Shown: positions 32,748 through 49,863 of the stretch, in pieces
Layout of the letters: every line of letters starts with the position of its first letter
Numbering within the stretch: position 1 is the stretch's first letter
Source of the DNA: an uncultured Verrucomicrobiota bacterium
GTDB taxonomy: Bacteria; Verrucomicrobiota; Verrucomicrobiia; Limisphaerales; UBA9464
Assembly: GCA_903896505.1 (NCBI GenBank)
Contig: CAITXU010000164.1
Span: 1-49,863 of the forward strand
DNA: 49,863 bases
Direction: 5' to 3'
The notes under the pieces: generated by a model
What the model was told of the DNA's origin: nothing
Databases searched by the model: none
What the model saw: the letters and a program-made list of their open reading frames with translations, nothing else
Position numbers and translations under genes: made by a program

Positions 32748-32802
32748 GACTCCCCTAAAGCCTTGGGCGAGCACAGTCGTGCTTTAAAGCTGGGTGGGAG
32801 TC
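32748..32802 (+). promoter_or_regulatory. Folded leader upstream of the sensor kinase that pairs its ribosome-binding site
   Basis: GACTCCC (32748-32754) can pair with GGGAGTC (32796-32802), which contains the GGGAG in front of ATG 32803. Inside lie two more nested pairings, TAAAGC (32756-32761) with GCTTTA (32781-32786) and AGCAC with GTGCT (32770-32783), which partly compete. The fold could limit translation of the sensor kinase. Only pairing was seen, and the transcription start is unknown. Confidence 0.4.
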
Positions 32803-34146
32803 ATGATTCCTCCGAACCGACCAACGACACTGGTCATCGTTGCTGCCATTGTCGCTGCCATCATATGGACCGAGATGACGACCTGGCAGCACATTCGGAA
32901 GGTGAAGGAGCGCGCGGAGGAGGTTGACTTTGAGCGCTTTCACGACTCCGTCCAACTGGAGGTCAAGTTTCGGGCGCTCCACGACGCAATTCTTCATGAG
33001 TCGAACCATCTGGCTTCGGCGCTAAGCCGCTCGCGGATTTCCGATTGCCGGGGTGAGTTGTCCGAGGCCTATGGACAATCCCTCCATCTGGCTTCCAACC
33101 TTCATGAAAACGATGCCCTTCATCGGGTCGGCACAATCCTCCATCGCTATATCGAGCAGGTGGATTCCATGCTGTCGGAAGAGTCGGGAACCATCGATGC
33201 CTCCCGCCTTCAAGTATGGGAAGGCCCACTGTCTGACCAGATTATTCGAGGGCTGCACGAATTGGCCCTGGCCGAACGAGCAGCGCTCAAGGAGCACCTT
33301 TCGGATTCGCAAGCGCTCGTTCGTTCATTGCATCAACACTTTGTTTTTTCTTCCATCAGCCTAATTGTCCTCGGAGGGACACTAGCCCTCCTGGTCAATC
33401 GTCGAATTGTGGTTCCTCTCCAACAAAGACTGATTCACAGTCAATCCGCCATTGAGCGTCAGGAAAAGCTGTCATCCCTGGGGGTGCTTGCAGCCGGCGT
33501 CGCCCATGAAATTCGAAATCCGCTGACCTCCATCAAAGTGCGGCTGTTTACCCAACAACAGCTTCTCAAGGCGGGTACTGAAGAATGGGAGGACAATCTT
33601 TTTCTGGCAGAGGAGATATCCCGGCTCGAGAAGATCGTGAAGGACTTCCTCGCTTTTGCGCGCCCCGCTGACCCGGAGCTGATTGAAATCCAGGCGTCCC
33701 AGCCCATGAAGGACCTTCTTCCATTGGTCTCCCCCTTGCTGAACAAATCCGGAGTTCAAATTGAGCAGGAATATCTCGAAAATCCCCCGGTGCGTGCCGA
33801 CGCTGCGCAGCTTAAACAGGCGCTGTTGAACCTGACCAAAAACGCTCTTGAAGCCATGCCGACGGGCGGTGTCCTCCGTCTTCGCACACGACTCGAACCA
33901 ACCCGATCGAGCGCCTCTCCTCATGGAGTGGTGATTCTTGAGATTTCGGATACAGGCCAGGGAATGCCACCAGAAATTCAAAAACGCCTGTTCGATCCCT
34001 TTTTCACCACGAAGGCAGGAGGGACCGGACTTGGTTTAAGCATTGCCTCCCGTATCATCGAAAAACATGGAGGATCGCTGGAATTCACAACGCAGGTTGG
34101 AACCGGCACCACCTTTCGAATCCTCCTTCCCGTTGCCTATTCATGA
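32803..34146 (+). CDS. Membrane sensor histidine kinase (NtrB/ZraS-like)
   Basis: The sensor half of a two-component system. Two transmembrane segments (TTLVIVAAIVAAIIW near the N-terminus and FVFSSISLIVLGGTLALLV near residue 185) enclose a periplasmic sensor of about 150 residues with no recognised fold. The transmitter has the H-box GVAHEIRNPLTS, N-box LLNLTKNALEAM, D/F-box ISDTGQGMPPEIQKRLFDPFFTTK and GGTGLGLSIASRII. All residues for autophosphorylation are present. It overlaps the response-regulator gene by 4 bp (ATGA). ATG 32803 is preceded by GGGAG; GTG 32794 is an alternative. Given the pump genes downstream, the signal is probably a metal or envelope stress. Confidence 0.93.
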   Translation: MIPPNRPTTLVIVAAIVAAIIWTEMTTWQHIRKVKERAEEVDFERFHDSVQLEVKFRALHDAILHESNHLASALSRSRISDCRGELSEAYGQSLHLASNLHENDALHRVGTILHRYIEQVDSMLSEESGTIDASRLQVWEGPLSDQIIRGLHELALAERAALKEHLSDSQALVRSLHQHFVFSSISLIVLGGTLALLVNRRIVVPLQQRLIHSQSAIERQEKLSSLGVLAAGVAHEIRNPLTSIKVRLFTQQQLLKAGTEEWEDNLFLAEEISRLEKIVKDFLAFARPADPELIEIQASQPMKDLLPLVSPLLNKSGVQIEQEYLENPPVRADAAQLKQALLNLTKNALEAMPTGGVLRLRTRLEPTRSSASPHGVVILEISDTGQGMPPEIQKRLFDPFFTTKAGGTGLGLSIASRIIEKHGGSLEFTTQVGTGTTFRILLPVAYS

Positions 34147-35585
34147 GCACGCCCAGAGTTCTGATTGTTGAAGATGACGAGAGGTCCGCCCTTTCCCTGG
34201 AGCGCCTTCTGAAATCCCAGGGGTATTCCGTCGCATTGGAATTGCAGGGTGACCGTGGCTTCGAACGGGCGATTCAGGAGTCGTTCGACCTGGTAATCAC
34301 GGATTTCCGAATGCCCGGACTCGATGGTCTCCGGCTCGTTCGACAATTGCATGAACGCAAGCCCCGGTTGCCCATGATATTGATGACAGCGTTCGGCACG
34401 ACGGAAACGGCCATCGAGGCCACCAAGCACGGGGCCTATGAATACATTCTCAAGCCATTTGATGTTGCCGAGATGCTGGAAACAGTGAAACGGGCGGTGG
34501 CAGGTGCCCGATGCATGAGTGAACGGGTGGAGTGGGGCGAAGATACCGGGAATCCGGATGTCGAGGCCATCATCGGCAATAGTCGGCCCATGCAAGCGGT
34601 CTACAAGGAGATTGGCCGGGTGGCGGAGACCACCGCTACAGTCCTGATTCGGGGGGAGACTGGCACTGGAAAGGAATTGGTGGCCCGCGCGATCTATCAG
34701 CACGGAAACCGTGCTGATCGCCAGTTCATTGCCGTCAACTGCGCGGCCATTCCAGAAAATCTGCTGGAGAGCGAACTCTTCGGCCACGAGCGTGGGGCGT
34801 TCACCGGTGCAGATTCCAAGAGGGTCGGACGATTCGAGCAGGCCCATGAGGGAACCCTGTTTCTAGACGAAATTGGGGATATGACCCTCTTTACTCAGGC
34901 CAAGCTTTTGCGTGTTCTCCAAGACAAGGTGGTGCGGCGGGTGGGCGGTCGGGAAAACATCTCCATTGACGTCCGTGTCATTGCCGCCACCCACAGGAAT
35001 TTGGAGCAGATGATCGCGGAACGACAGTTCCGGGAAGACCTTTATTATCGCCTGGGCGCTCTCGTGATCCAACTTCCTCCGCTCCGGGATCGCTCAGACG
35101 ATATTCCAGCACTGTCCCGATATTTTTTGAATCGCTCGCAAAAGGAACTGAACTGCCTCGGCGGTTCATTGGAGCCCGACGCCCTGCAATGGCTTCGTGA
35201 ACAGAAATGGCCGGGAAATGTTCGTCAGTTGGAGAATGTCCTCCGGCAGGCCCTCCTGGCTTCCCACGGATTCCCAATCCGGTCCGAGCTAATTCAGACG
35301 GTTTTTTCCAGGGCGAACGAAAAATCCGTTCATTCCCCCGCCCAAGCGGGTGGTATCGAAGGCCTGATGGACGAACTCCTGGCCCAGGCCAAGGGTGGGG
35401 CCGACCTCGATGTCCATGCCCGTGTCTTCGAGGAAATGGAACGGCAATTGTTTTCCAGGGCCATTCGTTTGGCCCAGGGAAATCAGGCCAAGGCCGCCCG
35501 CTGGTTGAAGATGTCCCGCCAAACGGTCCGAGAAAAGCTTCAGAATTTTGGACTGAAGACATCCAACGACGAAAGCGACACCTAA
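34143..35585 (+). CDS. Sigma-54-dependent response regulator (NtrC family)
   Basis: 480 residues in three parts. The receiver domain (1-120) has acidic pair VEDDE, phospho-Asp in [14 protein letters not shown], and the Lys in ILKPF. The AAA+ activator domain has Walker [14 protein letters not shown] and the GAFTGA loop that contacts sigma-54. It also has Walker [10 protein letters not shown], the arginine-finger region REDLYYRLG and [13 protein letters not shown] Fis-type helix-turn-helix lies at the C-terminus ([26 protein letters not shown]). It should activate sigma-54 promoters when phosphorylated by the adjacent kinase. A palindrome and a -24/-12 promoter directly downstream point to the efflux operon as its target. 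Confidence 0.96.
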
Positions 35586-35621
35586 GATTCCGGTGCCGGT
35601 GCAGGGAGTGGGTGTCGCGAT

Positions 35622-35656
35622 GACCAGTCATTGGGCATCGTGACCAATGACTGGTC
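35622..35656. promoter_or_regulatory. 13-bp perfect palindrome, probable activator binding site
   Basis: GACCAGTCATTGG and its exact reverse complement CCAATGACTGGTC are separated by 9 bases. No T-run follows, so a terminator is unlikely. Its centre lies about 80 bp upstream of the -24 element at 35720, a typical spacing for a dimeric sigma-54 activator site. The response regulator encoded immediately upstream is the obvious candidate to bind it. Confidence 0.7.
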
Positions 35657-35719
35657 TTCCAGAAGCTCGATTCATTCCAGAGACCCGCAAAATGGGGCAA
35701 AATCCGTGTATTTCGCACC

Positions 35720-35734
35720 TGGCACGCCGATAGC
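35720..35734 (+). promoter_or_regulatory. Probable sigma-54 (-24/-12) promoter of the efflux operon
   Basis: The sequence TGGCACGCCGATAGC matches the consensus TGGCAC-N5-TTGC at all but one of the defined positions. The GG and GC dinucleotides are 10 bases apart as required. It lies 30 bp upstream of the TolC-family gene's ATG (35764), leaving room for a start site and the GAAGGA ribosome-binding site. It lies next to a sigma-54 activator gene. Confidence 0.75.
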
Positions 35735-35763
35735 TCTGCGGGCGGCCATCGAAGGAATGCCGC

Positions 35764-37092
35764 ATGTCGAGTGTTGAATCCATCATGTCAGGTGTCCGTG
35801 AATCGGGCTACCGCTGGAAAAGTTGCCAGGAGAAGGCGCGTCGCAGTCTGGCCCTGGTGGCCTTTGGCCTTGCCTCCTGGGTGCAGGCGGAGACGCTCAC
35901 TCTGGACAAGGCCTTGCAACTGGCCGGGGAAGGGCACCCGCGCCTTCAGGCCGGTGTTGCGCAGTGGAGGGCTGCAGGTGCGGCCACGCGGACGGCGCGT
36001 GCCTTTCCCAATCCCGAGGCGGGGGCTTTGGCAGGTACCCAGACCACCCGGATTCCTGGGAATGCCGCCGGTTCGGTGTATTCTTTTAGTCTGACCCAGC
36101 CTCTGGATTTCGGTCCAACCCGGTCTTCGCGCATCGAGATCGCAGATCGGAACCTCGAGGGCAGCTATGCAGCGTTGGACCTGGTCCGCAACGAGGTTTT
36201 GTCCGACGTTCGACGGGCCTTTTTTGAAGCCCTTCGCCGTCAGTCGGAATTGGAACTATTGCTCGAAAGCTTTCGCCTGGTGGAAGATTTACGCCAGCGC
36301 ATTCAGGTGCGCGTGGGAGTGGGGGAGGCGGGGCGGCTGGAATTGGTGCGCACCGATGCCGAACTGGCCACCGCGCGGGCGACCGCCAACGCCGCCCGCC
36401 TTGATTTGACTTCCGCCATCGCCCGCCTGCGCGCCGCAACGGGTGTTGTCCAGGAAGAAGAAATTCATGTTCAGGGAACCTTTGAGGCTGCGGAAGCGGT
36501 GGAACCGCTGGCCGAGATCCGACAGCGGGTCCTGGAGAAGCATCCCTCCCTGCGGCAGGCGCGTGCCGAGGTGGCCCGTGCCCGGGCCAAGGTGCGTCAT
36601 GAACGTTCGCTGCGAATTCCGACGCCATCCTTGCGGGCCGAAATAGACCGCCCTCCCGATACCCCCACCTATCGTTTCGGACTCAGCCTGCCTTTGCCGC
36701 TCTGGGACCGACGTTCAGGCCCCATCGCAGAGGCCACCGCCCAGTTGAATCAGGCCGAGGCGCTTTTGAAATACCAGGAGATACAGATTCATTCCGCCCT
36801 GGTGGGTGCATACGGTCGTTTTCAATCGGCCGGTGAGCAGTTGACCGCGTTTGAGCAGGGGATTGTTCGCGAGGCCGAAGAGGCTCTCAAGGCGTCGGAA
36901 TTGGCATTTCAACTGGGCGAAAGGGGTATTCTGGAAGTCCTCGACGCCCAGCGCATCCTCCGAACCGTGCGCCTCCAGTTCCTGATTGCACGGTACGATC
37001 GCCAGCTGGCTCTGGTGGATATTAATGAACTGAAAGCAACAGCTCCCGCCGCCGACGCGGTCACTGGAGCCCCGTCGGAGACCAGGAAATAG
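35764..37092 (+). CDS. TolC-family outer-membrane efflux protein (CzcC-like)
   Basis: The outer-membrane channel of a tripartite efflux pump. The 442-residue protein has an N-terminal export region (RSLALVAFGLASWVQAE), then TLTLDKALQLAGEGHPRLQAG, the family opening. Two outer-membrane-factor repeats of long helices follow (LVRNEVLSDVRRAFFEALRRQSELELLLES; RTVRLQFLIARYDRQLALVDINELKA). PNPEAGALAG and LSLPLPLWDRRSGPIAEA fit the CzcC-like subset. ATG 35764 has GAAGGA at a 7-base spacing. It is the first gene of a three-gene operon with the adaptor (26 bp on) and the RND pump, probably driven by the sigma-54 promoter just upstream. Confidence 0.93.
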   Translation: MSSVESIMSGVRESGYRWKSCQEKARRSLALVAFGLASWVQAETLTLDKALQLAGEGHPRLQAGVAQWRAAGAATRTARAFPNPEAGALAGTQTTRIPGNAAGSVYSFSLTQPLDFGPTRSSRIEIADRNLEGSYAALDLVRNEVLSDVRRAFFEALRRQSELELLLESFRLVEDLRQRIQVRVGVGEAGRLELVRTDAELATARATANAARLDLTSAIARLRAATGVVQEEEIHVQGTFEAAEAVEPLAEIRQRVLEKHPSLRQARAEVARARAKVRHERSLRIPTPSLRAEIDRPPDTPTYRFGLSLPLPLWDRRSGPIAEATAQLNQAEALLKYQEIQIHSALVGAYGRFQSAGEQLTAFEQGIVREAEEALKASELAFQLGERGILEVLDAQRILRTVRLQFLIARYDRQLALVDINELKATAPAADAVTGAPSETRK

Positions 37093-37118
37093 ATTACCAG
37101 CTTTCCCACCCCTTCAAC

Positions 37119-38309
37119 ATGTCAACCCTTTCATCTCTCAATCTAACGGCCGTCTTTGGAGTCGCACTGGTCACCTTGACGGTGGGCATCGGTTGTGGGC
37201 CTGCCACTCCGGAAAAAAAGCCGGAAGCATCCGTCGCCAAGGAAGTGACCGATCCTTTGAGTATCAAGGCGGAGCCGGGCCTTTTCGAGCGCCTCCGCAT
37301 CGAGGAGCCCACGTGGGCTGAGGTCGGATTGAAGGTAACCGTTCCAGCACATGTTTCGGTCGATGAATCCCGTGTGACCCGGGTGGGCTCTCCCGTCCTC
37401 GGACGCGTCTTGGAATTGCCCGTCCAGGTGGGAATGGAGGTAAAACAGGGACAGGAATTGGCCGTGCTCAACAGCACGGCACTTTCGGATGCTCAGCTGG
37501 CATTTTTGAGAGCGTTTTCGCGTCGTCAGGCTGAGGAGCGGGCGGTCCAACGGGCCAAATCACTTCTTGAGGCGGGTGTGATAGGGACCGTCGAATTGAG
37601 CCGTCGGGAGGCTGAATTTTCCCAGGCAACAGCGGAGATGGATGTCGCACGGGACCAACTGGGACTGCTCGGCATGTCTCGTGAATCCATCGTTCGCCTC
37701 GAGCAAACCCGGCAGATCGATTCAGTATCCCGGGTGCTTGCCGGGATAAACGGGACCGTCATCGAGCGACGGGTCAGCGTTGGCCAGGTTATTCAAGCGT
37801 CTGAAAGTCTTTGCGACATCGTGGATTTGTCGCGGGTCTGGCTGCTTGCGGATGTTCCAGAATTGAAAGGAGGTTCCCTGTCTGTCGGGCAGCCTGTGCG
37901 AGTCCGGGTACCGGCACTACCCGAACTCAGCATCGAAGGTCGGCTGACCTTTGTTTCCGCCACGGTGAACCCAGCCACCCATACAATTCAGGTCCGACTC
38001 GATGTGAAGAACGAGGACCGGAAATTGAAACCGGCCATGCTGGCGACACTGGAATTCACGAACCACGCGGAGAAGAAACTGGTGATCCCCCTGTCCGCCG
38101 TGGTTCGCGAGGACAATCAGGAGCATGTCTTTGTTCAGAAGGAGCCCCAGGTATTCATCCTGCGAAAGGTTTCCATCGGCCACGAAGCGGACAGCAACCG
38201 GGTTTCGGTGGAAGGACTCCGTGAAGGGGAAAAAATTGTCACCGAAGGAGCATTTCATCTGAACAACGAGCGAAGCCGACGTGCGCTCAAAGGAACTGAA
38301 GGATCCTAA
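37119..38309 (+). CDS. RND efflux periplasmic adaptor (CzcB-like membrane fusion protein)
   Basis: Joins the inner-membrane pump to the TolC channel. The 396 residues begin with a hydrophobic export segment ending VGIGCGPATPEKK, which may be a lipoprotein signal (a weak lipobox). Next come a beta-barrel region, the lipoyl-like half-motifs SPVLGRVLELPVQVGMEVKQGQELAVLNS and VLAGINGTVIERRVSVGQVIQASESL, and an alpha-hairpin of about 70 residues between them. The C-terminal region has LVIPLSAVVREDNQEHVFVQ and GLREGEKIVTEGAF, typical of the CzcB/CusB group. No metal-chaperone Met/His cluster was seen. Only 2 bp separate it from the pump gene. Confidence 0.93.
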   Translation: MSTLSSLNLTAVFGVALVTLTVGIGCGPATPEKKPEASVAKEVTDPLSIKAEPGLFERLRIEEPTWAEVGLKVTVPAHVSVDESRVTRVGSPVLGRVLELPVQVGMEVKQGQELAVLNSTALSDAQLAFLRAFSRRQAEERAVQRAKSLLEAGVIGTVELSRREAEFSQATAEMDVARDQLGLLGMSRESIVRLEQTRQIDSVSRVLAGINGTVIERRVSVGQVIQASESLCDIVDLSRVWLLADVPELKGGSLSVGQPVRVRVPALPELSIEGRLTFVSATVNPATHTIQVRLDVKNEDRKLKPAMLATLEFTNHAEKKLVIPLSAVVREDNQEHVFVQKEPQVFILRKVSIGHEADSNRVSVEGLREGEKIVTEGAFHLNNERSRRALKGTEGS

Positions 38310-38311
38310 TC

Positions 38312-41300
38312 ATGGTCAAATCGCTGATAGATGCCTCGCTGAGGCAACGCGTGGTCGTAGTGGTGCTGGCATTCATTGCCCTCGCTGCCGGAATTGACGC
38401 GACACTGAAGCTTTCGGTGGATGCCTTTCCCGACGTCACCAACGTTCAGGTTCAAATCGCCACCGAAGCATCAGGACGCTCGGCAGATGAGGTCGAGCGC
38501 ATCGTGACCGTGCCGGTTGAGATTGGCATGACCGGGTTGCCTGGCATGGTCGAAATGCGGTCACAAAATCAGGCTGGCCTTTCCATCGTCACGCTCGTCT
38601 TCAACGATGCCACACCGGTCTATTTTGCGCGGCAGCTGGTCTCGGAACGCCTTGCAGAGGTTCGAACTCGCCTTCCCCCAGGCCTCAATCCCGTCCTGGG
38701 GCCGGTGTCCACCGCTCTCAGTGAGGTCTATCAATATACGATCGAGAAATCCACCGATGCTGAACGTCCTCTTTCCAAGGAGGAGTTGATTGAGCGCCGA
38801 ACTCTTCAGGATTGGGTGGTTCGCCCGTTGCTTCGATCCATCTCTGGAATTGCGGAAATCAATTCCACCGGTGGCTATGTCAAACAATATCAGGTCGTCG
38901 TGGACCCCATCCGGATGCGTAACTTTGGCATCACCCTCCAGGACGTGCAGGAGGCTCTTGCGCGGAACAACGCGAATTCCAGCGGTGGCATCATTCCGCG
39001 TGGTTCGGAAATTCTTCTCGTGCGCGGCCTCGCCCTCGTTTCCAGCCTCGAGGACATTCGGTCCATCGTTCTCAAGGAAACAAAGGACACCCCTGTTTTT
39101 ATCCGGGACGTGGCCGAGGTGCGGGTGGGTGAGGAAGTTCGTTACGGAGCCATGATCAAGGGCGGCTACACCGAATCTGTTGGAGGCATCCTCCTGATGG
39201 TGGCCGGGGGCAATGCGAAGGAAATCGTGGCACGGGTGAAGGACCGTGTTCAGGAAATCAATTCAAACGGAATGCTGCCGGATGGAATGAAGATTGTCCC
39301 CTACTATGACCGTTCGGAGCTTGTTGATGCCGCACTCATGACCGTCAGCAAGGTACTGATGGAAGGTATTCTTCTGGTCGTGGTGGTCCTTTTCCTTTTC
39401 CTTGGTGATCTTCGCTCCAGCCTGATTGTGATTGGCACGCTGGTCCTGACGCCGGCTCTAACCTTTCTCGTGATGAATTCGTTGGGGATGTCGGCCAACC
39501 TGATGTCGCTGGGTGGTTTGGCCATCGCCATCGGCCTGATGATCGACGGTGCCGTGGTGGTGGTGGAAAATGTCTTTCATCGTCTGGGCCACGACAAATC
39601 AACTCCCCGGCTTAAATTGGTCTTTGATTCAGTGATGGAGGTCGCGACGCCGGTGGTGTTCGGCATTTGCATCATCATCCTCGTTTTTCTGCCACTCATG
39701 ACCCTGGAAGGGATGGAAGGGAAAATGTTTGCGCCGCTGGCGCACACCATTGCCATCGCATTGGCGATTTCCCTGGTCCTCTCCCTCACATTAACTCCGG
39801 TTCTCTCCTATTTCGTCCTGAAACCGGGCAACGATTCGGATACCTGGGTTGTTGCACGCTTGAAATATCCGTACAGGAAGCTCCTGAAATGGGCCACCTC
39901 GAATGAAATCAAAACTGTGGGCGTGACCTTCGCCGTCTTCATTGGTTCCCTGCTTCTTGTGCCGTTCCTGGGAACCTCATTCATTCCCGAATTGAAGGAG
40001 GGTACCATTTCTCCCAACGCCGACCGGGTTCCCAACATTTCCCTCGATGAATCCATCCGCATGGAAATGGAGGCTCAGCAGCTGATTCGAACCGTTCCGG
40101 GCATTCGATATGTTGTTTCCCGTCTGGGCCGGGGTGAATCACCGGTGGACCCTGCAGGGTATCATGAAACGGATATGATCGCCCAGCTGGCGCCCATCAA
40201 GGAGCGCAAAGGCAGAACCCAGGATGATATTGCCGACGAGGTTCGGAAAAAAATTTCCGCGCTGCCGGGAGTCAACCTGGTGATGGCCCAGCCCATCTCC
40301 GATCGCGTCGACGAGATGGTGACCGGCGTCCGTGCCGATATCGCCGTCAAAATCTTTGGAGATGACCTGGATATTCTCCTCAAAAAAGCCACGGAGGTCT
40401 CCAAGCTGGCGCAAAAGATTCGAGGGACCGGCGACGTTAAAATGGATCGTGTCTCGGGACAGCAGAATTTGAACATCACCATCGACCGGCAGGCCATCGC
40501 ACGCCATGGGCTCAATGCATCCGATGTTCATGATGTCATTGAGGCCGCCATCGGTGGAAAGTCATCCACTGAAATCTACGAGGGTGAACGCCGATTTCAG
40601 GCGGCGGTCCGTTATCCGGAATCCCTCCGAAACAGTCCGGAAGCAATACGGAGTATTCTGATCAATGGGCCCGACGGCGAACCGATCCCCCTGGATTCCA
40701 TCGCCAAGGTGGAACTTCGTGAGGGCTATTCCCAAATCAAACGCGAAATGGCCAAACGCCGGGTGGTCATCGGCATCAATGTGCGTGACCGGGACTTGGG
40801 TGGTTATGTCGAGGAGTTGCAATCCCGGGTTCGGGAACAGGTCGTCTTGCCTGCGGGCTACCATTTTGAATGGGGAGGTCAATTTCAGAACATGGAGAGG
40901 GCCTTGAATCGTTTGATGATCATCGTTCCCGTGACCATCGGAGGAATCTTCTTTCTGCTGTTTCTCCTCTTTAATTCCATCCGGTTCGCATCCCTGATCA
41001 TTCTGGTCCTCCCATTTGCCTCCATTGGGGGAATTGCTGGGCTCTTTTTGACGCGGGAGTACCTTTCGATTCCTGCTTCTGTCGGTTTCATTGCACTCTG
41101 GGGAATCGCGGTGCTCAACGGAGTGGTTCTCGTTTCATATATCCGGAGTTTACGTCAGTCGGGTATGTCGCGTCATGAAGCCATTGTTCAGGGGGCATTG
41201 ATGCGATTCCGTCCGGTGATGATGACCGCTTCCGTGGCTGCCCTTGGATTGGTGCCATTCCTGTTTGCCACGGGACCCGGCTCGGAGGTGCAGCGTCCTC

Positions 41301-41479
41301 TGGCCATCGTTGTGATTGGCGGATTGATGACCTCCACATTGCTGACCCTGGTAGTTGTTCCAGCCCTCTATGGGTTCTTTGACGATCTTCCGAAGCAACA
41401 GGCGGGGAGCAAACCGATTGATCCCCACGGTAAACCGGCTCACCTCGACACAGAGCCTTTGCGTGTCTGGCCGGTGTGA
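38312..41479 (+). CDS. Heavy-metal-efflux-type RND transporter (CzcA/CusA family)
   Basis: A proton-driven inner-membrane pump of 1055 residues, the normal length for the HME subfamily. It opens with MVKSLIDASLRQRVVVVVLAFI, and DAFPDVTNVQVQI matches CzcA/CusA proteins. The periplasmic part has GLPGMVEMRSQNQAGLSIVTLVF and SALSEVYQYTIE. Transmembrane helix 4 reads GLAIAIGLMIDGAVVVVENVFHRL near residues 404-427. The Asp and Glu of the proton relay are there, but the Asp-Phe-Gly start of the zinc/cobalt type is Ala-Ile-Gly, so the substrate cannot be named. The C-terminus is PALYGFFDDLP and a short tail. It ends the operon before a hairpin at 41541. Confidence 0.94.
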   Translation: MVKSLIDASLRQRVVVVVLAFIALAAGIDATLKLSVDAFPDVTNVQVQIATEASGRSADEVERIVTVPVEIGMTGLPGMVEMRSQNQAGLSIVTLVFNDATPVYFARQLVSERLAEVRTRLPPGLNPVLGPVSTALSEVYQYTIEKSTDAERPLSKEELIERRTLQDWVVRPLLRSISGIAEINSTGGYVKQYQVVVDPIRMRNFGITLQDVQEALARNNANSSGGIIPRGSEILLVRGLALVSSLEDIRSIVLKETKDTPVFIRDVAEVRVGEEVRYGAMIKGGYTESVGGILLMVAGGNAKEIVARVKDRVQEINSNGMLPDGMKIVPYYDRSELVDAALMTVSKVLMEGILLVVVVLFLFLGDLRSSLIVIGTLVLTPALTFLVMNSLGMSANLMSLGGLAIAIGLMIDGAVVVVENVFHRLGHDKSTPRLKLVFDSVMEVATPVVFGICIIILVFLPLMTLEGMEGKMFAPLAHTIAIALAISLVLSLTLTPVLSYFVLKPGNDSDTWVVARLKYPYRKLLKWATSNEIKTVGVTFAVFIGSLLLVPFLGTSFIPELKEGTISPNADRVPNISLDESIRMEMEAQQLIRTVPGIRYVVSRLGRGESPVDPAGYHETDMIAQLAPIKERKGRTQDDIADEVRKKISALPGVNLVMAQPISDRVDEMVTGVRADIAVKIFGDDLDILLKKATEVSKLAQKIRGTGDVKMDRVSGQQNLNITIDRQAIARHGLNASDVHDVIEAAIGGKSSTEIYEGERRFQAAVRYPESLRNSPEAIRSILINGPDGEPIPLDSIAKVELREGYSQIKREMAKRRVVIGINVRDRDLGGYVEELQSRVREQVVLPAGYHFEWGGQFQNMERALNRLMIIVPVTIGGIFFLLFLLFNSIRFASLIILVLPFASIGGIAGLFLTREYLSIPASVGFIALWGIAVLNGVVLVSYIRSLRQSGMSRHEAIVQGALMRFRPVMMTASVAALGLVPFLFATGPGSEVQRPLAIVVIGGLMTSTLLTLVVVPALYGFFDDLPKQQAGSKPIDPHGKPAHLDTEPLRVWPV

Positions 41480-44378: not shown

Positions 44379-44409
44379 GTCGAGTCGACAGTTGTCCATC
44401 GTCCGGAAA

Positions 44410-45900
44410 ATGAACTCCTCTTCGACGGAACGTGCCCGTCAGCACGCAGCCCAGTATCAAACCTATCGGGGGCTTCCTCCCTTGTTAGGATTAAGTAGTT
44501 TCGTGGAGGCCGTCGAACCCGGGATGTCCGTCGAGGAATCGGTCGATGCTCTTAAACGTCATCACTATGCCTTTCGCCGACTGCATCATGTGTTCATCGC
44601 TCGCCTGACCTCGGAGCCGATCTTTGAACTGAAGATGGCCTTCAGCTATCACGCATGGCTCTGTGCGGTGCAGGTGAGTGCCCTCCGGGCGAGGGTGGGT
44701 GAAATGCGCGAGCCGCCTCTGGGGCTTGAGAAAGTGCCTCATCCTGGTCTCGAGCTTGCCTTCGATGAACTCCTTTCCGCAGCCACCACCGAGGAACTGC
44801 TGTTGGGACTCTATGAAGTGGCCTTGCCGACACTTCAAGCCAGGCTGGAACAACATTACCGCCGAGCTCATCCACTTGCGGATCAACCGACCCGACGACT
44901 TTTGAGCGCCGCCAATGCCGACGTACAGGAACAGTTGGATTACGGGCTCCGGGCCATTTCGTGTCTGGTTGAACCCGAGGCCCGTGGTGCGGCCATGGAA
45001 ACTCTGACCACGATGCGGGCGGCATTGGCTGTTGCCGATCATCGCCCTCTTATTGACGCGGTTGCCGGAACACCGGAATCCAACTTCGTTGAGAGTTCCG
45101 GGTTACCGCCCCGCCATCGCTCAAAAACACCCTGGAAATTCGACGGTCAGCCCCGTCGCGATGAGCGGTTTCCCGATCCCTACAACATGGGAGTCAATGC
45201 CGAGGTGTTCCTTTACGAGCCCAGCCTCCCGGCGGAAGCCAAGGTGCTGATGATGTTCTATAAGCGTATCCGTGAGATCGATGTTCCGGAAATGATGGCC
45301 AGCATCCTCGCGGAGACCCCGGGAAAGCCATGGGCCTATTATCACGACATGACCCGTCAATTATGGGACGAGGCCCGGCACGCGATGATGGGTGAAGTGG
45401 GATTTGCGAGTGTCGGGATCGATTGGGCAAAGAATGTCATGGTGAATTTCACCTGGTCCCTGGGACTCAATACCCAGCTGACGGCCAAGGAACGCCACGC
45501 CGTGCTCTATTTCATCGAGCAGGGGCTGATGCCCAAGACGGGAAAACGGCACGAATGGGAAGTCAGCCTGCGGGCAGCGAATCCATTGGCGGCGACCTTC
45601 CAGGACTTTGACTGGGCCGACGAGGTGCTGCATGCCCGGGTGGGCCGCGACTGGTACGTCAGTGACATGCCGAGCCCCTCGGCGGCGGTGGCCTATGGCG
45701 ACGAATGCTGGAGCAAAGTCTTGATCGGTTGGAAATCGTGGAAGGATCAAGGGCTGACAGCGCATCGCAACTGGTGGCCGGGCGCCTACCGGGAGTATTG
45801 CGCCAGCAACGGGCTGGAACCTGACCCCACCGTGGCTGCCTTTCAGGTCACCTACGAGAGCACCCGCGCCGATCTCAAGGACATCTCCGCGTCAGCCTGA
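44410..45900 (+). CDS. Ferritin-like di-iron helical protein (DUF455-like)
   Basis: A mostly helical protein of 496 residues with the pattern of a four-helix ferritin-like di-iron site. One Glu lies in EPIFELKMAFSYHAW and another in RIREIDVPEMMASI. Glu-x-x-His pairs lie in LWDEARHAMMGE and WADEVLHARVG. The length is about twice that of a simple ferritin, and the N-terminal half has its own helical bundle. DUF455-like and other ferritin-like oxidases are the closest families by eye, so an O2-dependent oxidation is plausible but unproved. ATG 44410 is used; TTG 44392 is an alternative. It is tightly coupled to the aldolase gene, which hints at a shared substrate pathway. Confidence 0.7.
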   Translation: MNSSSTERARQHAAQYQTYRGLPPLLGLSSFVEAVEPGMSVEESVDALKRHHYAFRRLHHVFIARLTSEPIFELKMAFSYHAWLCAVQVSALRARVGEMREPPLGLEKVPHPGLELAFDELLSAATTEELLLGLYEVALPTLQARLEQHYRRAHPLADQPTRRLLSAANADVQEQLDYGLRAISCLVEPEARGAAMETLTTMRAALAVADHRPLIDAVAGTPESNFVESSGLPPRHRSKTPWKFDGQPRRDERFPDPYNMGVNAEVFLYEPSLPAEAKVLMMFYKRIREIDVPEMMASILAETPGKPWAYYHDMTRQLWDEARHAMMGEVGFASVGIDWAKNVMVNFTWSLGLNTQLTAKERHAVLYFIEQGLMPKTGKRHEWEVSLRAANPLAATFQDFDWADEVLHARVGRDWYVSDMPSPSAAVAYGDECWSKVLIGWKSWKDQGLTAHRNWWPGAYREYCASNGLEPDPTVAAFQVTYESTRADLKDISASA

Positions 45901-46062
45901 GGACACCTCTTGGAGAAATGGCTTCATCATTCACAGCAAGTCCTCCTACAATATCCAGATGCCGCACGCATCCACGGTAAAGTGGAAGATATGCTGGCGA
46001 TAACGCCAATCACAAACTCGGCGGGAAAACATAAGCCTAATTGCCCCGGAGTCACCTCTTGT

Positions 46063-46296
46063 TCAGCTATTAGAACGAATCTCCGCACCCAAGTAAGCTC
46101 CCCGTTGAAGCGAAAGAGCCCTAGGCGCTAGGTTTCGTGCGCGTCGCAATAGCTGCTCGGCCTGACCTCGATCTAACTGATTGCGCCCCACAACTGGAAG
46201 TCGATCAACCAATTCCGCAAACTTTTCGGCGATCTCTTGCTCTTCTATTAGTTCAACATTTGATCTGAACTCCTGGAGTGAAAAAATAGTTCGCAT
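46063..46296 (-). CDS. Small hypothetical protein downstream of the C39/TIM-barrel gene
   Basis: A 77-residue open frame from ATG 46296. It begins MRTIFSLQEFRSNVELIEEQ, has a helical acidic N-terminal half, and a basic C-terminal half with QAEQLLRRARNLAPRALSLQ. It lies 40 bp after the stop of the large gene at 46337 on the same strand, so the two could be one unit. No domain was recognised and no ribosome-binding site is obvious. A peptide substrate, a regulator or a chance frame are all possible. Base composition is low in GC like its neighbour. Confidence 0.45.
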   Translation of the reverse strand: MRTIFSLQEFRSNVELIEEQEIAEKFAELVDRLPVVGRNQLDRGQAEQLLRRARNLAPRALSLQRGAYLGAEIRSNS

Positions 46297-46336
46297 AATT
46301 TATTCAACTTATTCGTACAAAATAAAATGTGCTTGG

Positions 46337-49300
46337 TCAAGCAAGTTGCTGGTCAGTCCACGCCATAGACTTTTCGACTGTATCGAATCTCTCAGCGAGT
46401 TCAATCTCGACTGAAAACAGAAGTGGCCTTGCCTCGGTCGAACGGCACCCTTGCGTCCGAAGCGAACGAATGATTGATGCAGTCGTGCTAGCTGTAACGC
46501 CCTCCCCGATGGCGAGATCAGCGAAATGACCTTTACCCAGATCGGACACATGAACGTGTACGATGTGATCTATGATACTGCCTCCTTCAGCCCCATTACC
46601 GTGTATATTTAGGGAGGCAGATGTGATCCCTGCGAGAGCCCAGTGCCCAGTGTCGCAGTTGAGGCCGACCGATCTTCCGATTCTTGAATATTCAGTCAAT
46701 TGAGGTAGCAAAGACTTGATATCTGCAAGCTCAGATACAACATAAATGTCACCGGGTTCCAACTCAATTGAAAGCGTGAGCCCCTGGGCCAATTCTGGTA
46801 CAACCTCTTCAAGAGATAACTTGAGGGCAGAGAGCGCCGTCTCTTTCGATGCAAGGCGAGCGGAAAAAGCGGAACCGTCATCATCCCAAAAGACGTTACC
46901 TCCACCACTTATTTCACGTCGAGACTTCGGAAGTGAAGCCACGCGATGCCCGTAAAGCAGCGTACCCGTCACTGTCTCAATAACCTGAATCGACTTCGGC
47001 CGGTTAATATTGATCAGGTTTGCTATTTTCACTACCGCTCGGAGGGCCGAGCAAGAACGTTGGCGCCTGGCCAAGTCTAAGCTCCCGATTCCAGGAAAAA
47101 AAGTGCAGATGGCCGCCAAAGTCGGGCCCTGCGACGAACTTTCCAGAATCCGATTTGCCAATCTCTCCAATGCACTTAAGTTTTTGCAATTCTCTGCAAG
47201 CCAATCTTCAGCCGTGATGATGGGCGGTACATATGGCTCAAGAATCGGCTTTTTGTAGAAAATCTTTTTTGGGCGGTTTCGATCAAAGCGTATCGGGAAT
47301 TGGTTGAAGACAGACTTTACGAATGCAGTCAGGGAAGAGCATTGCTTTGGCAAGCTTCTAATCATCGCCAAAGGTGTTGTCTGTGACGGGCAAAGCATTT
47401 CAACTTCATCGCGCATGAATGCGTAAAGTTCAATGTGGTTACAGTGCCCATTGCTTAGCTTTTTGATTTCGTTAGAGCACAAGCCACGCTCAGTGAATGA
47501 TGTAATTACCCCGACTGAACAGCTGGTTGAGGCATGCGGATTACTCTGAGGAGATGCAACTTGCTGGATCGTCGGTGGTCCTGGGGGCATCGCAGTCTGC
47601 GAGTCGAATACACAATGAGCAGCTTTCCAAGACCATTGTCCATTTGAGATGTACCCCATTCCAACTATTAACGTCTCAATGCTATCACCAATTCTAAGGC
47701 TCGAAAGATCCAACTCCGCATTCCAGGCTCCGCACATGCCAACTCCAATTTCAAGCCAAAGCCATTGGCCAAGTGCCCAGCCCTCCGTCTTCAGAAAGTC
47801 GAAAAAGTTTGATAGGTCGGTTGGTGTTAGTCCGCAGCGTTGAAGGAGTGGATTGTGTTCGAAAAAATCTAAATTTGAATATTCGCCTGCAATCTTTACC
47901 AAAAGGAAGTCCCGATGATCGTTCGGTGGAAGTGCTGACAGACTCCTACCCCAAAAGATCGACCAATCGAAACTTCCAGCAATCTCCACCAGTCCTGGTT
48001 GAAACGCTGAATCAGACTCATCTTCGGGCAATTCCCGACTCCGTTCGACGGATGGTTTTAGTGATAGTAGGGCAGTTTTGACTCTATCAGGAGTAACTGG
48101 AATAAAGAGTGGATAATCTAATGATGAACCAAATTCAATTTCCGCTTCTTTAGCGACTTCCGGTGCAGTGTAGGTGGAATTTCTTAAAATAGCATCGGTT
48201 GACATTTCCACAAAAGGGCGATGCGCCGGATCCTGAACAAGGTACTTATCATCAGTCTCGTGATATCCAAAGACGACCACCATATGCCGACAACTTCTAT
48301 CGGAACGTCCGGCATTTGGGCGATCTCCAGCGAAGTATAGACTCACTGGCTGGATATTGCAGCGACCGGATGTCTTTCCTCTCATGCGATCCGAATCGAC
48401 TCGAAGGAGTATAGGGAACCCTGAGCGGATATAGCCTCTGAGTGCTCGCCCGATTCGATTTCGCGCTAATGTCGTAATTCCGCCTGCTGCGGAAAAATGA
48501 GATTCACGTTCCTTATATCGAACGCGATTGTAGTTGAAGTATTGGGTCTCGGCCCACATACCAATCCGAGGAGCTCGAAAGTAATGGCATACTTCGGTTG
48601 CAGTCAGGCCACCCAGAGGGAAATCTTCATACGGAGTGCGGGTCGCTGAGGGTCGAGCTAGAATCGTAATCTCCGGTAGGGAGACTACAGAAGTGACAAT
48701 GTGGTAGGTAAACATTGTCGCCATGAAGCAGCATGCCTGTGCGCAAAGACCTCCTCCGATCACATCAAGTTGGCGAAGATAAGGAACAAGCACGGGAACA
48801 TCTTGGGGAGGTGCGTCGTGTTCTCCCAAGTGTCGCAAAATCTGCGACGGTAGTCCCAAGACGTGCCAACTATTTGTCTGGTAAATCTTCGGAATTGAAA
48901 GATACGAGTCTGCGATTGAACTTAGTCGGCGCGGTTCCCGTATTGCCCGAACTGAATTAAGCTGAGGCAAAATTCGTCGTAGACGTCGAACATTGACAAG
49001 TCCAAAGTATCCGCCTCCCTTTTGCTGAAATCTTACTCGCCAGGCAAATCGGGGATCGGAAAGACCCAACATCTCGGCTTCCCCTCGGGTTATTATTGAA
49101 GGAGCGAGTCTGGTTTGCCACTCGGTTTGAGGCGTTGACGCTCCGTTGGAAAGAATCGAATTTATGACTCTGAGCTCAGAGATTGCCATCCGCATTACGT
49201 CAGGATGATATTTTGATAGCGATGGACTCCACGATGAATACATGACTTTGGTACAAAACAGCGGTCGGCGGATTGAATTCGGAACCGGGGAACATTGATG

Positions 49301-49558
49301 GAGGGCCGTTTCGTCAAGCAATGAGAAAATGGCAAATCTTGCAGGATGACTATTGGAAATTGGATTTTTGGGAGCGCTATCGCCACCATAAAAGAGCTGA
49401 TGCTCTGACGCGGAGACATTGGCACGACTGCAATAATTAGCTAACGGTTTCTCAACCGGAATTGGTTCGCAAATAAGTCTTTGCCATTGTCCGGCAAAGG
49501 GTCTACCGAAGGTAACCCATTGCGCAACAGGATTTTCATCAGCGTGTTCAGACTGCAT
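46337..49558 (-). CDS. Large fusion of a C39-like cysteine-peptidase domain and a xylose-isomerase-like TIM barrel
   Basis: From ATG 49558 the protein has about 1073 residues; the frame is open to 49831, inside an insertion sequence, so the start is unsure. ATGs at 49243 and 49195 are alternatives. The middle domain (about 245-490) looks like a C39-type papain fold. Cys272 lies in GGGLCAQACCFM, His425 in CRHMVVVFGYHE and Asp443 in YLVQDPAH, with GFPILLRVD between them. The C-terminal domain (about 680-1073) resembles sugar-phosphate isomerase/epimerase barrels: a Glu in IELEPGD, NCDTGHWALAG (Asp969, His972), VHVSDLGKGHFADLAIGEG (His1003, Asp1006) and VEIEL (Glu1051/1053). About 200 residues between the domains are unrecognised. 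GC is clearly below that of the neighbouring genes. Confidence 0.7.
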   Translation of the reverse strand: MQSEHADENPVAQWVTFGRPFAGQWQRLICEPIPVEKPLANYCSRANVSASEHQLFYGGDSAPKNPISNSHPARFAIFSLLDETALHQCSPVPNSIRRPLFCTKVMYSSWSPSLSKYHPDVMRMAISELRVINSILSNGASTPQTEWQTRLAPSIITRGEAEMLGLSDPRFAWRVRFQQKGGGYFGLVNVRRLRRILPQLNSVRAIREPRRLSSIADSYLSIPKIYQTNSWHVLGLPSQILRHLGEHDAPPQDVPVLVPYLRQLDVIGGGLCAQACCFMATMFTYHIVTSVVSLPEITILARPSATRTPYEDFPLGGLTATEVCHYFRAPRIGMWAETQYFNYNRVRYKERESHFSAAGGITTLARNRIGRALRGYIRSGFPILLRVDSDRMRGKTSGRCNIQPVSLYFAGDRPNAGRSDRSCRHMVVVFGYHETDDKYLVQDPAHRPFVEMSTDAILRNSTYTAPEVAKEAEIEFGSSLDYPLFIPVTPDRVKTALLSLKPSVERSRELPEDESDSAFQPGLVEIAGSFDWSIFWGRSLSALPPNDHRDFLLVKIAGEYSNLDFFEHNPLLQRCGLTPTDLSNFFDFLKTEGWALGQWLWLEIGVGMCGAWNAELDLSSLRIGDSIETLIVGMGYISNGQWSWKAAHCVFDSQTAMPPGPPTIQQVASPQSNPHASTSCSVGVITSFTERGLCSNEIKKLSNGHCNHIELYAFMRDEVEMLCPSQTTPLAMIRSLPKQCSSLTAFVKSVFNQFPIRFDRNRPKKIFYKKPILEPYVPPIITAEDWLAENCKNLSALERLANRILESSSQGPTLAAICTFFPGIGSLDLARRQRSCSALRAVVKIANLININRPKSIQVIETVTGTLLYGHRVASLPKSRREISGGGNVFWDDDGSAFSARLASKETALSALKLSLEEVVPELAQGLTLSIELEPGDIYVVSELADIKSLLPQLTEYSRIGRSVGLNCDTGHWALAGITSASLNIHGNGAEGGSIIDHIVHVHVSDLGKGHFADLAIGEGVTASTTASIIRSLRTQGCRSTEARPLLFSVEIELAERFDTVEKSMAWTDQQLA

Positions 49559-49723
49559 GCAGTGGCTGACGTGTGCCTGCCTGTTTGCTCGGTCGTTGGT
49601 TGGTGCTGTGGTCACAGCGAGTTGGAGAGCGTTGGTGCCTGGCGAACTGGGACTTAGTTTTTTAAGTTTTTCTCTTAAGGGCCGTACTTTGTCAATAGAA
49701 ATGCAAAAAAGCGGTGAAATATT

Positions 49724-49863
49724 GCCTCTTCCGACATTTTGGTGGGATTTGTCAGGCCGTGGGATAAAGATTAAGACCCCCGATATGAAAGAGGATATCG
49801 GTCTTGAAGCGTTCTCGATTGCGGTAGCCATAGGCTTTCTTGACCAGGCCAGCGATTCGATTG
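49724..49863 (-). mobile_element. End of a probable ISL3-family insertion sequence (continues past window)
   Basis: The sequence GCCTCTTCCGACATTTTGGT beginning at 49724 looks like the GG/GC-led terminal inverted repeat of ISL3-type elements. It lies 28 bp beyond the stop of a transposase-like frame (49752). The 8 bases before it, GAAATATT (49716-49723), are AT-rich, as ISL3 target duplications usually are. The other end is outside the window, so neither the repeat nor the duplication can be matched. Confidence 0.5.
49752..49863 (-). CDS. C-terminal end of an ISL3-like transposase (partial)
   Basis: The last 36 codons of a gene entering from the right edge. They read NRIAGLVKKAYGYRNRERFK and then TDILFHIGGLNLYPTA before TGA. 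The 'N-R-I-x-x-x-x-K-x-A-Y-G-Y-R-N' pattern is the typical end of ISL3-family (DDE) transposases. The catalytic part is outside the window, so whether it is intact is unknown. The reading frame differs from that of the large C39/TIM-barrel frame, which overlaps it only in its doubtful first 27 codons. Confidence 0.55.
   Translation of the reverse strand, partial: NRIAGLVKKAYGYRNRERFKTDILFHIGGLNLYPTA

Follow-up and report, generated by a model that had tools for sequence, protein, structure and literature searches.

A predicted C39-like cysteine domain joined to a predicted metal-site TIM barrel in a rare mobile protein family

Results

The DNA analysed here (the window) is a stretch of 49,863 nucleotides that makes up the entire contig C164. 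The draft genome to which it belongs (G000) comprises 298 contigs and 5.36 Mb. On its minus strand we found a probable gene (46337-49189(-)) for a protein of 950 amino acids, in which a C39-like cysteine-enzyme domain is followed by a xylose-isomerase-like TIM barrel. The same fusion, or the adjacency of its two halves, recurs in independent genomes with the putative active-site residues conserved, which argues that it results neither from chance nor from an assembly error; these comparisons establish that the predicted C39-like/AP_endonuc_2 fusion is genuine and that it recurs within a mobile family of rare occurrence.

One uninterrupted frame encodes both domains

Counted back from its stop codon at 46337, the frame stays open for 1174 codons and reaches the contig end (46337-49861(-)), in agreement with the single uninterrupted frame described in a previous reading of the sequence without database searches (hereafter the sequence-only reading). 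Within the region 45901-49723 it counts 1128 stop-free codons, whereas first-order simulations of this region, 500 in all, reached 311 at most. The start that had been chosen for a frame of 1073 residues, at 49558, is probably too early. Since the relative from genome G877 aligns from the ATG at 49189 (MAISEL.. in the window, MAIWNG.. at the N-terminus of the G877 protein), this codon is probably the gene start. The residues formerly numbered Cys272, His425 and Asp443 therefore become Cys149, His302 and Asp320. The N-terminal region (residues 1-130; 48800-49189(-)) carries the motif APSxxxR....RFxxRV, common to the G877 and G038 proteins, and no Pfam family matched it.

The two halves are fused in two genomes and overlap in two others

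A search through all 320 genomes of the order brought relatives to light, at first two of them. In G877, a single frame of 881 residues matches both halves of the window protein (33% identity, E=1.4e-25, and 27% identity, E=4e-12) and passes both Pfam cut-offs, so that the fusion proposed in the sequence-only reading is borne out in an independently assembled genome and is not the product of two genes joined by an assembly error. In G749, the halves are separate adjacent genes whose stop and start codons overlap as ATGA. A further member, in G038, was found with a three-member profile (E=3e-14); its C39-like gene (538 residues) lies upstream of the barrel gene (646 residues) and overlaps it by 17 bp. 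The homologues keeping both domains are thus fused in the window and G877, and encoded by overlapping neighbours in G749 and G038. The family is present in 4 of the 320 genomes of the order, belonging to four different families. A four-member profile found no additional member; its other matches in the order were ordinary single-barrel proteins, about 200-310 residues long. Although the relatives are only 24-33% identical, the triad and the metal residues described below are conserved.

Two proteins that are fused in one genome and encoded by adjacent, overlapping genes in another classically take part in one process. The fusion observed twice and the overlap observed twice therefore indicate that the two parts are functionally coupled, and that the predicted C39-like and barrel halves work together in one job.

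Sampling outside the order covered hundreds of genomes. Whole-protein searches of 58 relatives and of 384 genomes from the class, a search of 388 genomes from the phylum with the C39 part alone, and searches of viral contigs, plasmids and phages all gave chance matches only. Two scans of genome contigs, performed with short exact or degenerate peptides only, gave no match; in the second of these scans and in one viral scan the patterns were widened with artificial sequence variants, and the second scan ran on patterns other than those designed for it. In open-licence papers, the combination of C39 and barrel was met only as unrelated neighbours in a Chloroflexi table.

The cysteine domain has a triad in C39 order

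The domain covering residues 131-377 (48059-48799(-)) was assigned from Pfam and from profile-profile alignment. A scan of the whole protein gave Peptidase_C39_2 (PF13529) as the sole and weak match (E=0.021); with the sub-sequence the match reached E=0.0012 and 19.8 bits, below the Pfam gathering cut-off of 24, while the G877 relative scored 24.4 bits, above it. The family profile aligned by hhalign with C39_2 relatives at a probability of 91.7 (E=8e-7), over a stretch that corresponds to the His/Asp half and does not include the cysteine; cross-controls for both domains remained below 10% probability.

The putative nucleophile Cys149 (48743-48745(-)) lies in the motif GGGLCAQACCFM and is kept in G877 and G749; its counterpart in G038 was placed by eye only, the automatic alignment having misplaced it. 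His302 (48284-48286(-), motif HMVVVFGY) and Asp320 (48230-48232(-), motif QDPAHRPF) are invariant in the four homologues, and a proline follows the aspartate in three of the four. The Cys, His and Asp are in the order of C39_2, as had been noted from the sequence alone, and are conserved across the family. The position of the oxyanion-hole glutamine is occupied by Gln140 in the window protein, by Thr in G877 and by Ala in G749. Because two relatives have another residue in place of this glutamine, peptidase activity of the Cys site may not extend to every member; in the C39 domain of CvaB, the Q26A substitution had little effect (PMC3335142).

The barrel carries a conserved putative metal quartet

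The region between the two domains (residues 378-555; 47525-48058(-)) has no Pfam match and contains the motif W.W.....WNAE, kept in G877 and G749. The barrel follows (residues 556-950; 46340-47524(-)). Against the C-terminal 400 residues, AP_endonuc_2 (PF01261) gave E=1.2e-6 and 28.9 bits, below the gathering cut-off of 31.1, and the G877 relative scored 44.8 bits, above it. Alignment by hhalign of the family profile with the AP_endonuc_2 proteins of the same genome reached a probability of 97.7 (E=1.8e-12). A column alignment with these proteins assigns the putative metal ligands Glu809, Asp846, His880 and Glu930 to the catalytic columns of AP_endonuc_2. This quartet is invariant in the four homologues, as are Glu738, His849, Asp883, His888 and Asp891. 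These data uphold the metal-site barrel pattern of the sequence-only reading. The DUF692 type that it had considered found no match in Pfam up to E=10; the predicted barrel belongs with AP_endonuc_2. When the window barrel was compared by BLAST with single AP_endonuc_2 proteins of G000, the top match, a weak one (E=0.006), was an EboE-like barrel protein starting with CTN-V-H-x-G (L025:1078-2253, contig C59).

AlphaFold2 models built from single sequences had pLDDT values of 32 (barrel) and 31, too poor for structure searches, and comparison of the family profiles with solved structures revealed no relative.

The gene lies in a mobile island bordered by an insertion sequence

The fusion gene is located in a horizontally acquired, low-GC island that is absent from a genome of the same genus. 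The GC content of this island (46.0-49.7 kb, 3.7 kb) is 0.486, against 0.573±0.010 (SD) in 3.6-kb windows of the rest. The convergent neighbour (44395-45900) is shared with the same-genus genome (82% protein identity) as far as the last codon, where the similarity stops. These data support the horizontal acquisition suspected previously. An ISL3-family element borders the island upstream.

The right end of this insertion sequence, recognised from its genome copies and terminal repeats, occupies 49724-49863(-) and is cut by the contig end. The copy on contig C187 measures 1480 bp, with terminal repeats and a DDE_Tnp_ISL3 transposase (E=5e-69). The element is present at nine places in the genome, most of them at contig ends. 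An 8-bp target-site duplication (GAAATATT, 49716-49723) recurs at the other end of the element on contig C39 and pairs it with the window; duplications of the same length pair C187 with C139, C268 with C85, C63 with C249, C185 with C184, and C186 with C50. Multiple copies of the element thus break the assembly, and the duplications allow contigs to be paired across the gaps. Read into the C39 flank, the frame meets a stop after 10 codons, and therefore the element lies upstream of the gene, which is unbroken. For this reason an interruption of the gene by the element was rejected. Reading the in-frame extension through the last 140 bases as part of the gene was also rejected, its frame being different from that of the transposase.

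A possible second gene of the island, an ORF of 77 amino acids (46063-46296(-)) defined by sequence and coordinates only, is doubtful because it belongs to no family and has no credible counterpart at the G877, G749 and G038 loci; as a conserved partner it finds no support there. Beside the island, the window region 32794-41479 contains a metal-efflux-like cluster (sensor kinase, sigma-54 regulator, outer-membrane efflux protein, CusB-like fusion protein and RND pump).

Discussion

A candidate two-step enzyme and its rivals

We propose, with a probability of about 0.4, that the protein is a cytosolic mobile two-step enzyme combining thiol chemistry on an acyl or amide group with metal-dependent chemistry of a sugar-like kind. 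The C39-like domain (Cys149-His302-Asp320), with a predicted papain fold, would cleave or transfer the amide or acyl group. Acyl transfer is conceivable because BtrH, a papain-fold relative of C39, is an acyltransferase acting on an aminoglycoside (PMC10318531). After or before this step, the barrel (Glu809, Asp846, His880, Glu930) would isomerise, epimerise or cleave a sugar-like part. We infer the activity of both sites and the order of the steps, and, from the fusion and the overlap only, that both sites act on the same substrate. Pfam gave no transporter or toxin signal in the window protein. Beside the four loci we saw neither a precursor peptide nor a transporter or biosynthetic partner, and no sugar or peptide biosynthesis gene is adjacent to any of them.

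The main rival to the two-step enzyme is a role in conflict or signalling, suggested by the island contexts and by a cyclase-like domain in G038. The barrel and the cysteine domain would then form an effector or sensor pair in an anti-phage system based on nucleotide signalling and carried by defence islands, which we regard as somewhat unlikely. In G038, the 646-residue protein (L117:6920-8860) continues from the barrel into a domain resembling class III nucleotidyl cyclases (PADLOC PycC, E=3.7e-5; adenylate cyclase structures, E=0.011). This domain contains a GDG motif and the first Asp, in VDIGKST, and its catalytic Asn is apparently replaced. The presence of such a domain on the barrel points to signalling rather than metabolism. 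The G038 gene pair is AT-rich (GC 0.427, against 0.48-0.55 around it). In G877, the gene is flanked on one side by a DEAD-box helicase gene and on the other by an integrase next to tRNA-Asn, in an island (L113, L139, contig C244) that carries, further upstream, a second helicase, queC/queE/queD, folE2 and a DpdA-like TGT; a TIR-like effector, related to those of CBASS and Pycsar, is encoded 28 kb from the fusion gene on the same contig. Two large ATPase genes are also present in this tRNA-Asn island. The sporadic distribution, the low GC content and the insertion sequence would fit a conflict system as well. Against it, PADLOC has no model matching the window protein, the G877 protein or the half of the G038 pair that resembles C39. 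The other three loci have no cyclase gene next to them, no toxic domain was recognised, and mobile islands carry plenty besides defence. The more specific idea, that a mobile conflict system so far undescribed is built around the pair and that some of its members are coupled to a class III nucleotide cyclase domain, appears unlikely.

Natural-product tailoring, in which a BtrH-like acyltransferase would be joined to a sugar isomerase, is quite improbable. The window protein shows a weak match to BtrH_N (E=0.12), a family closely akin to C39, with an aminoglycoside as substrate (PMC10318531), and AP_endonuc_2 barrels act mainly on sugars; however, the gene or gene pair stands alone, with no carrier protein, glycosyltransferase, cyclitol synthase, exporter or resistance gene at the four loci. 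Still less credible, and in our view very unlikely, is the maturation of a leader peptide, in which a C39 peptidase would serve a RiPP whose precursor is the 77-residue ORF and whose modifying enzyme is the barrel. The C39-like triad and the position of this small ORF, on the same strand and 40 bp downstream, speak for it, but the ORF has no double-glycine leader and no equivalent at the other three loci, no ABC transporter was found, and DUF692 was undetected. Finally, a chance open frame or an assembly chimera of two unrelated genes, which might be suspected for a gene that first looked orphan and is found, within low-GC DNA, at the end of a contig, is refuted by the fusion in G877, the adjacency in G749 and G038, and a frame far longer than the simulated ones, and can be neglected.

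Whatever its substrate, the proposed two-step enzyme brings together two very common enzyme folds for which no joint work was known before, coupled here in a rare family that travels between bacteria. Since both active sites are conserved and can be separated, their joint function lends itself to a test with two point mutants, and the barrel-cyclase relative of G038 offers a concrete lead toward nucleotide signalling.

Comparison with known systems

The resemblance to Peptidase_C39_2 lies in the helix C[AS]xxxxxM bearing the cysteine, in the strand H-x-V-V-V-x-G-[YF] and in the Asp-Pro of the triad; the window protein also has the glutamine before the cysteine, a position that varies in its relatives. 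The family differs by long insertions between Cys and His, and by the joining of the domain to the N-terminal region, the WNAE extension and the barrel, whereas Peptidase_C39_2 domains are mostly single-domain proteins (PMC10318531). The fusion to an ABC exporter typical of PF03412 is absent, Pfam having detected no transmembrane or ATPase domain in the window protein or in G877. In CvaB, the C39 domain has the triad Cys32/His105/Asp121 with a following Pro, whose order and Asp-Pro pair are essential (PMC3335142); both are the same in the window protein. With BtrH (PF14399) the likeness is that of a C39-related papain fold with a catalytic cysteine, but the match covers the domain end only, and no carrier-protein or aminoglycoside genes are nearby.

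The likeness to PycC of Pycsar is restricted to the G038 relative, with its class III cyclase-like domain and GDG motif, and the domain is absent from the window gene. In G038 the match is weak, the domain shares one protein with a metal barrel, and the place of a known Pycsar effector is taken by a C39-like partner.

Endonuclease IV, which cleaves DNA, has a three-zinc site with extra His ligands. The strand-3 motif of the window family, which reads AFATF in relatives, shows no clear His, in a stretch aligned too weakly to set the family apart from this enzyme. From other AP_endonuc_2 barrels the family is distinguished by its own ELEPG, GHFxD and ELE motifs and long insertions, by the lack of a strong match to the single-barrel members seen, and by the C39-like domain that is fused to it or shares its operon. 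The quartet of metal ligands in ketose 3-epimerases is Glu/Asp/His/Glu (PMC8167858), and the putative ligands of the window barrel follow these enzymes and AP_endonuc_2 in order and in kind, with the Asp-x-x-His pattern in addition.
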